Assembly: GCA_035772405.1 (NCBI GenBank)
Contig: JAYKKM010000418.1
Span: 135,001-199,000, forward strand
DNA: 64,000 bases
Source: Chrysogorgia sp. JL179-B06
Taxonomy: Eukaryota; Cnidaria; Anthozoa; Scleralcyonacea; Chrysogorgiidae
Direction of reading: 5' to 3'
Shown: positions 59,215 through 59,846 of the stretch, piece after piece
Numbering within the stretch: the first letter of the stretch is position 1
How the letters are laid out: every line of letters begins with the position of its first letter
Translations under genes and position numbers: made by a program
Notes under the pieces: model-generated
Database searches by the model: none
Told to the model about the DNA's origin: nothing
The model's input: the letters and a program-made list of their open reading frames with translations, nothing else

Positions 59215-59569
59215 CTTTTATCATTTTGAGGTAAGTTCACTATATATATATATATATATATAGATACGCTCTATGACCTGTAGTTAGATACGCTCTATGA
59301 CCTTTATATCTATATATATAGATCGCTCTATGACCTATATATATATATATATATAAAAAAAGATACGCTCTATGACCTGTAGTTAGATATGCTCTATGAC
59401 CTGTAGGTCATTATTGAGCGCTCTACAGGATGAACCATTGTCGCTTACGCATTGTGCGCACGCTCACTGCTTGCAGTTTGAGCGCTCTGGCATGGTTTTT
59501 GATGTCCCACATTTTGTGTGGCATCAAGGGTGACTGTTAATAGCAGTTATCTTCATCCTGCTCATCAGC

Positions 59570-59615
59570 ACTACACTGATGAGGACCAAAAGGCCGAAAC
59601 GGTACTGTCTGTAGT
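59570..59615 (+). ncRNA. Hammerhead ribozyme, unit 1
   Basis: Stem I is ACTACA (59570-59575) with TGTAGT (59610-59615). The core is CTGATGA (59576-59582). Stem II, GGAC with GGCC, has one A-G mismatch, with loop CAAAA. GAAA follows, then a four-pair stem III with one G-T wobble and loop TA. Cleavage is predicted after C59609. Confidence 0.8.
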
Positions 59616-59800
59616 TAGATATGCTCTATGACCTTTAGGTCATATTGAGAGCTCTACAGGATGAACCATTGTCGCTTACGCATTGTGCGCACGCTCACTG
59701 CTTGCAGTTTGAGCGCTCTGGCATGGTTTTTGATTTCCCACATTTTGTGTGGCATCAAGTGACTACGTTAATAGCAGTTATCTTCATCCTGCTCATCAGC

Positions 59801-59846
59801 ACTACACTGATGAGGCCCAAAAGGCCGAAACGGTACCGTCTGTAGT
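59801..59846 (+). ncRNA. Hammerhead ribozyme, unit 2 (perfect stems)
   Basis: Stem I ACTACA / TGTAGT (59801-59806 / 59841-59846). Core CTGATGA (59807-59813). Stem II GGCC / GGCC with loop CAAAA. GAAA (59827-59830). Stem III ACGG / CCGT (59830-59833 / 59836-59839) with loop TA. Cleavage is predicted after C59840 (GTC). Every invariant residue is present. Confidence 0.88.

Follow-up and report, generated by a model that had tools for sequence, protein, structure and literature searches.

Hammerhead ribozymes (HHRs) have been described in several groups of repeats that bear on the locus reported here. Metazoan non-LTR retrozymes are characterized, in the sections drawn on here of Cervera and de la Pena (2020; PMC7229834), as repeats of 150-450 bp with a GC content below 50% and a type I HHR; units of 220-240 bp are given for Acropora millepora and repeats of 230-350 bp for jellyfish and sea anemone. 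When a target duplication is present in metazoan retrozymes, those sections describe it as longer than 4 bp. Further traits of the class are many genomic copies, linear as well as circular RNAs in tissue, a tertiary contact of loop 1 with loop 2, and the lack of LTRs, primer binding site and polypurine tract. Most metazoan circles, though not all, are described there with the ribozyme free to fold, whereas in the predicted circles of plant retrozymes and viroids it is covered by self-pairing, and the 2020 authors supposed a block other than self-pairing for the animal circles that accumulate. The same sections name Penelope-like elements (PLEs) as candidate carriers of retrozymes and report that RtcB closes such RNAs in vitro. 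A dimeric hammerhead form is known for newt and viroid RNAs in the part of PMC6155905 consulted and is discussed for axolotl retrozymes in that of PMC7229834, and the schistosome W elements are, from the part consulted, the subject of PMC8490949.

The window analyzed here is a stretch of 64,000 nucleotides from the octocoral Chrysogorgia sp. JL179-B06 (contig JAYKKM010000418.1). It contains a short tandem array that we read, with a probability of roughly 0.84, as the genomic dimer of a metazoan non-LTR retrozyme. The two units are as follows.

59378 to 59609, plus strand: unit 1 of the putative retrozyme, 232 nt, ending at predicted cleavage site C59609
59610 to 59840, plus strand: unit 2 of the putative retrozyme, 231 nt, ending at C59840; the predicted product of double cleavage

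Tandem Repeats Finder, run on the window, reports 2.1 copies with a period of 231 bp and 95% matches. The units lie head to tail, each closed by a predicted type I HHR, and the original prediction of near-identical 232- and 231-nt units ending at hammerhead cleavage sites proved exact in coordinates and lengths. GC content is 47% in unit 1 and 46% in unit 2. The longest stop-free run around the circle, computed for unit 2 only, is 68 codons, in keeping with a non-autonomous unit that lacks coding capacity. No LTR, primer binding site (PBS) or polypurine tract (PPT) was noticed in the array by reading of the sequence only. Pieces of the unit gave no match in viral contigs; two matches in prokaryote genomes, neither with CTGATGA in the 60 bases upstream, were taken as chance. 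The units differ by five substitutions and three indels, which argues against a fresh insertion from one circle.

Both ribozymes can be followed position by position; the scores are those of covariance model R1.

59570 to 59615, plus strand: type I hammerhead 1 (37.4 bits, rough E 8e-10); stem I 59570-59575/59610-59615, core CTGATGA 59576-59582, stem II 59583-59595, GAA 59596-59598, stem III 59599-59608, predicted cleavage after C59609
59801 to 59846, plus strand: type I hammerhead 2 (48.0 bits, rough E 1.8e-13); stem I 59801-59806/59841-59846, core 59807-59813, stem II 59814-59826, GAA 59827-59829, palindromic stem III ACGGTACCGT 59830-59839, predicted cleavage after C59840

Each has the complete CTGATGA...GAAA core, a stem I of 6 bp, a four-position stem II with a CAAAA loop, and a short stem III. 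In HHR 1, core and stem I are intact, but stem II contains an A.G mismatch and stem III a G.U pair; in HHR 2, stem I (6 bp) and stem II (4 bp) contain no mismatches. The stem III sequence is the 10-nt palindrome ACGGTACCGT in copy 2 and ACGGTACTGT in copy 1, and it can form either 3 bp with a GUAC loop within one copy or a continuous 10-bp stem between two copies. The second ribozyme had originally been called perfect. Stems I and II and the whole core bear this out, but the stem III of 4 bp with a 2-nt loop is better read as 3 bp with GUAC, or as a palindrome able to pair between two copies.

Motifs of this kind are rare by chance. With a type I descriptor the window yields six rows (five loci), whereas dinucleotide shuffles average 0.005 each, and stems of at least 6, 4 and 4 bp appeared in none of 200 such shuffles. 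An earlier, less stringent descriptor picked out only copy 2 in the window and had 3 hits in 60 first-order Markov sequences. Model R1 was built from 18 viral-contig hammerheads, and its E-values are rough owing to a short calibration. Of 50 eligible sequences, 34 were aligned, but this alignment was set aside because stems III of two lengths did not align properly; the model uses those 18 of the 34 whose stem III is longer. The model is not wholly independent, since its training sequences were selected with a core/stem II pattern to which the motif in the window conforms as well. Up to E = 5 it reports no further place in the window. With Rfam 15 at the gathering threshold no hammerhead was found in the window. 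The original prediction had looked to the Rfam hammerhead models for confirmation, and these do match when relaxed (E up to 10, on 1.6 kb), with 25.2 and 17.9 bits for RF02275 (cutoff 52) and 18.0 for RF03152 (cutoff 56.3), but none reaches its cutoff, perhaps because stem III is so short. The missing gathering-level match, together with the unfavorable predicted folding described below, is what could be said for a chance or decayed look-alike that never was, or no longer is, an active ribozyme. Set against the R1 E-values for both copies and the empty shuffles, that explanation has a negligible chance of being right.

The predicted folding is dominated by a hairpin that lies over the catalytic core in both copies.

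59561 to 59583, plus strand: anti-core hairpin of unit 1, CTCATCAG-CACTACA-CTGATGAG
59792 to 59814, plus strand: anti-core hairpin of unit 2, same sequence

Its 8 bp, with a predicted energy of -9.4 kcal/mol, pair CTCATCAG with the catalytic CTGATGAG and place the 5' strand of stem I in the hairpin loop; since the core and this strand are both occupied, hairpin and hammerhead are mutually exclusive. The best predicted fold of both circles includes the hairpin, which contributes 8 pairs to the circle of unit 1 and 7 to that of unit 2. The circular folds have energy z-scores of -4.0 (unit 1) and -2.95 (unit 2), with 0 and 1 of 200 shuffles as low, and 70% and 68% of the bases paired, so the predicted circle is extensively self-paired. 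The ribozyme is not free to fold in it, as its core is covered by the hairpin. Forcing the active fold on copy 2 costs 5.33 kcal/mol as it stands, 5.06 in circle context cut to the same size and 7.83 in the whole circle, all from folding energies that omit tertiary contacts. For copy 1, which the control parser rejected for its stem II mismatch, a separately computed and for that reason less comparable value is 16.65 kcal/mol.

How unusual such a trap is was judged by chance expectation and by controls. The probability of the hairpin 8-mer in the 20 allowed places is about 3e-4, counting base composition only and estimated after the hairpin had been seen. The controls were putative hammerheads in at least 120 viral-contig stretches. 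Among the matches listed, an 8-nt complement of the core within the 30 nt upstream was found in 0 of 133 viral HHR cores and a 7-nt complement in 1 of 133; 121 of 131 places were read as HHRs, 104 of them type I and the remaining 17 type III, and the other 10 places were dropped as unparsed. Penalties of the active fold in these listed matches had a median of 0.90 kcal/mol and a maximum of 5.82 for type I, and 1.16 and 7.36 for type III. In a stricter type I set of 75 listed matches, two had a penalty as high as that of copy 2 and just one had a stem III of no more than 3 bp. One viral control, L060, carries a 7-bp version of the trap. As predicted from folding, the anti-core trap is rare yet not unique among viral controls, and the hairpins of the two copies, belonging to one array, give no independent evidence of conservation. 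Four of the viral contigs (L003, L014, L035 and L051) have three hammerhead cores each, 236 to 1494 bases apart.

Folded within the full dimer transcript, the double hammerhead, at -152.3 kcal/mol, is predicted to be 4.1 kcal/mol better than two single ones (-148.2) and 18.5 worse than the free fold (-170.8). In these models, pairing of stem III between copies helps but is insufficient alone against the trap. The simple release of a 231-nt RNA that was originally proposed is at odds with this folding, given the stem II mismatch of HHR 1 and the hairpin over the core in both copies. Among the features examined, the retrozyme reading itself is affected in one respect only. Size, tandem layout, GC content, type I HHR, lack of coding capacity and self-paired circle all agree with it, and the ribozyme is not free in the predicted circle; because a free ribozyme is not a defining feature of the class, membership is left intact.

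The array is embedded in TA repeats.

59241 to 59262: left (TA)n
59263 to 59377, plus strand: short pieces of the 5' end of the unit, left of the array, namely GATACGCTCTATGACC and a 24-nt unit containing TGTAGTTA, with TA or A runs between the pieces
59847 to 60039: right (TA)n, with the junction after TGTAGTTA at unit position 8

On the right the array abuts (TA)n directly, and on the left three pieces start at unit position 9 (GATAC or GATCG) behind TA or A runs, so that array and TA repeats join at one and the same unit phase. Any target duplication would be masked by the TA sequence flanking the array. At the site of contact, TAGATAT near the unit start matches (TA)n with one mismatch, as judged by eye. 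Each of the five HHR loci is no more than 250 bp from a TA array, and sequence this close to such arrays makes up 8.2% of the window; the five are not independent, since two of them belong to this array. Pure TA arrays, counted at seven or more repeats with near ones merged, number 13, and 12 of these fall in two clusters at 36.0-38.0 kb and 58.97-61.1 kb, the remaining one being at 32632.

The same junctions bear on a purely local origin, in which a 231-bp hammerhead repeat was duplicated at the DNA level by slippage or unequal crossing-over, as a satellite that had not recently passed through RNA. To the left of the array, the 24-nt pieces with their TA runs do resemble slippage between two CTGTAG motifs, and the divergence of the copies and the predicted trapping of both ribozymes fit as well. 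However, the core residues have stayed intact in both copies after divergence, the array is a dimer and not a long one, and the unit has the same phase at both ends against TA. We consider this origin unlikely, and the retrozyme dimer remains the preferred reading.

Other sequences share the TA surroundings. At 36651-37264, 2.2 tandem copies of a 276-278-bp unit are flanked by two TA arrays of 348 bp, and there is a tRNA-like sequence in each full copy (36776-36848 and 37052-37124; 34.7 bits) to which ARAGORN assigns a four-base anticodon. It resembles the retrozyme as a tandem dimer in TA, and Rfam finds no ribozyme in it. A related piece near 37827-37931 likewise lies, by reading, between TA repeats. 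Foldback (inverted-repeat) sequences adjoin TA repeats at 36037-36297, 37697-37780 and 59032-59147, the first two containing Penelope-type HHR motifs. An element at 60040-60800 with inverted ends TACAGTGCTGTAA splits the right-hand TA repeat into 59847-60039 and 60794-60843, which were probably one original repeat. A neighboring AKAP7-like gene has 37 relatives.

A Penelope-like element adjacent to the array had been put forward as a source of reverse transcriptase (RT).

38608 to 39551, plus strand: RT part of the PLE, open only to 39105 and interrupted by a Polinton-like insertion
39552 to 57803: Polinton-like insertion, 18,252 bp, with a 6-bp duplication (ATCCTC) and inverted termini
57804 to 58650, plus strand: C-terminal part of the PLE with the GIY-YIG region; the end of the element is read at a TA repeat at 58974

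The RT part was assigned to a PLE by what we take to be PLE RT motifs, and additionally by the ATCCTC duplication, which joins it to the GIY-YIG part. Pfam gave no match on the two PLE pieces. The GIY-YIG piece has 642 relatives; among the 120 listed, four carry an RT domain (PF00078) and nine a GIY-YIG domain (PF01541), and they include sequences from Oculina patagonica (53% identity) and Lepisosteus oculatus (49%). The insertion is called Polinton-like by its termini, its duplication, an integrase frame with a chromodomain and a gene content that we take to be that of such elements. In Pfam the integrase frame scores 43.7 bits for Chromo, above the cutoff, and 28 for rve, below the cutoff of 32.6; a second frame scores 20.9 for endonuclease VII, below 23.6, and another frame has no match. 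A further copy at 57637 of the 24-nt terminal sequence faces 57777-57800, making the right end a foldback. The PLE does lie near the array, as had been suggested, its end being about 400 bp away, but this copy is broken and split and so offers no usable enzyme source; the enzyme would have to come from elsewhere.

Apart from the array, three minimal type I HHR motifs lie in the window, with U.U at the base of stem II.

36238 to 36281, plus strand: minimal type I HHR motif
37737 to 37694, minus strand: minimal type I HHR motif
60849 to 60889, plus strand: minimal type I HHR motif

They have A at the cleavage site (in an alternative pairing the one at 60849 reads T) and stem sequences unlike those of the retrozyme HHRs, and from their layout, set beside published descriptions, they are read as Penelope type. 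A degenerate fourth hammerhead motif lies near 59180. A 23-nt hammerhead-like string, CTGATGAAGGGCTCCGCTCGAAA, which the type I descriptor does not match, occurs at 58944 on the plus strand, at the Penelope end, and 2.1 kb away at 61053 on the minus strand.

These motifs help to weigh the possibility that the array is no separate element but a hammerhead-bearing piece of pseudo-LTR derived from the Penelope element itself. PLEs are described with type I hammerheads in tandem pseudo-LTRs in the consulted parts of PMC7761336 and PMC6155905, and the nearness of the PLE end would fit. The PLE-type HHRs of this window nevertheless differ from those of the array in the base of stem II, the stems and the cleavage base, and none of the three is reported up to E = 5 by R1, which finds both retrozyme HHRs. 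Moreover, 14-mers of unit 2 recur only once in the window outside 59240-59860, at 63780. A pseudo-LTR origin is accordingly very improbable, and the classification of the array HHRs as minimal PLE-type hammerheads was rejected, by comparison with the three PLE-like motifs of the window.

Given the units, motifs, predicted folds and junctions described above, cleavage, a circle and reverse transcription would follow by analogy with published relatives. Transcription through the array would yield an RNA with two type I hammerheads, and cleavage after C59609 and C59840 would free the 231-nt unit, which a host enzyme of the tRNA-ligase type might close into a circle. The circle would then be copied in trans, most likely by the reverse transcriptase of a Penelope-like element with an AT-preferring endonuclease, and more than one round of copying would give a tandem dimer. 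Priming may, as we infer, take place at the TAGATAT where array and TA repeat meet. The anti-core hairpin would be expected to hold the ribozyme off in most molecules and so preserve the circle, the active fold being favored by pairing of the stem III palindrome between copies in a long transcript, or by protein.

The Penelope protein of Anolis provides a parallel, as far as the consulted part of PMC11167929 describes it. It cleaves AT-rich DNA and begins reverse transcription at an internal position of the template, which would suit a template without ends, i.e. a circle, and the Anolis Penelope hammerhead cleaves only when protein is added, which would suit a trapped hammerhead. This start site shares no homology with the DNA that is cut, and RNAs with a mutated hammerhead inserted in vitro as well as the natural RNA did, with unprocessed RNA as the main substrate; these results speak against the proposed priming site and against a need for cleavage. 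The combined model, in which the hairpin is an off-switch in the monomeric circle that is switched on by stem III pairing or a Penelope-type protein, and copying from an internal (TA)n-matching site makes insertions start and end at one phase in TA, is offered tentatively, with the odds well against it.

As a retrozyme, the array adds one further locus to an already described class, and it brings two open questions within reach of experiments on an RNA of 231 nt. Animal circles accumulate despite mostly free ribozymes, and here a self-pairing block is predicted; the off-switch, if true, would be one answer to how animal retrozyme circles avoid re-opening. Penelope-like elements are suspected, unproven carriers of retrozymes, and a one-phase array in TA near Penelope-type HHRs offers a concrete junction.

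Comparison with known systems places the locus as follows, within what the consulted parts of the sources describe. Like plant LTR retrozymes, it has two hammerheads that bound the unit and a predicted circle whose self-pairing blocks the ribozyme (PMC7229834). Plant LTR retrozymes differ in their type III hammerhead, LTRs, PBS and PPT (PMC7229834, PMC7761336) and their circles of 600-1000 nt (PMC6155905); that assignment was rejected, the layout here being type I. With the minimal hammerheads of PLEs the array shares the type I layout, and such motifs also lie beside TA repeats in this window; judged by the three motifs found here, PLE-type hammerheads differ in their stem sequences, in the U.U at the base of stem II and in having A as the cleavage base. 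Like the satellite or retrozyme hammerheads of newt and axolotl, which cleave better as a dimer and include one axolotl type with a palindromic loop, those of the array have a weak, short stem III, although this is 3 bp here as against 1-2 bp and the unit is 231 as against 330-350 bp. Set beside published descriptions of metazoan non-LTR retrozymes, the array is unlike most in the hairpin over the core and the position in (TA)n, and it agrees with them in the type I HHR, tandem units of about 230 bp, GC content below 50%, self-paired predicted circle and Penelope-like sequence nearby. It is a good but ordinary example of a class described in corals, mussels and salamanders.
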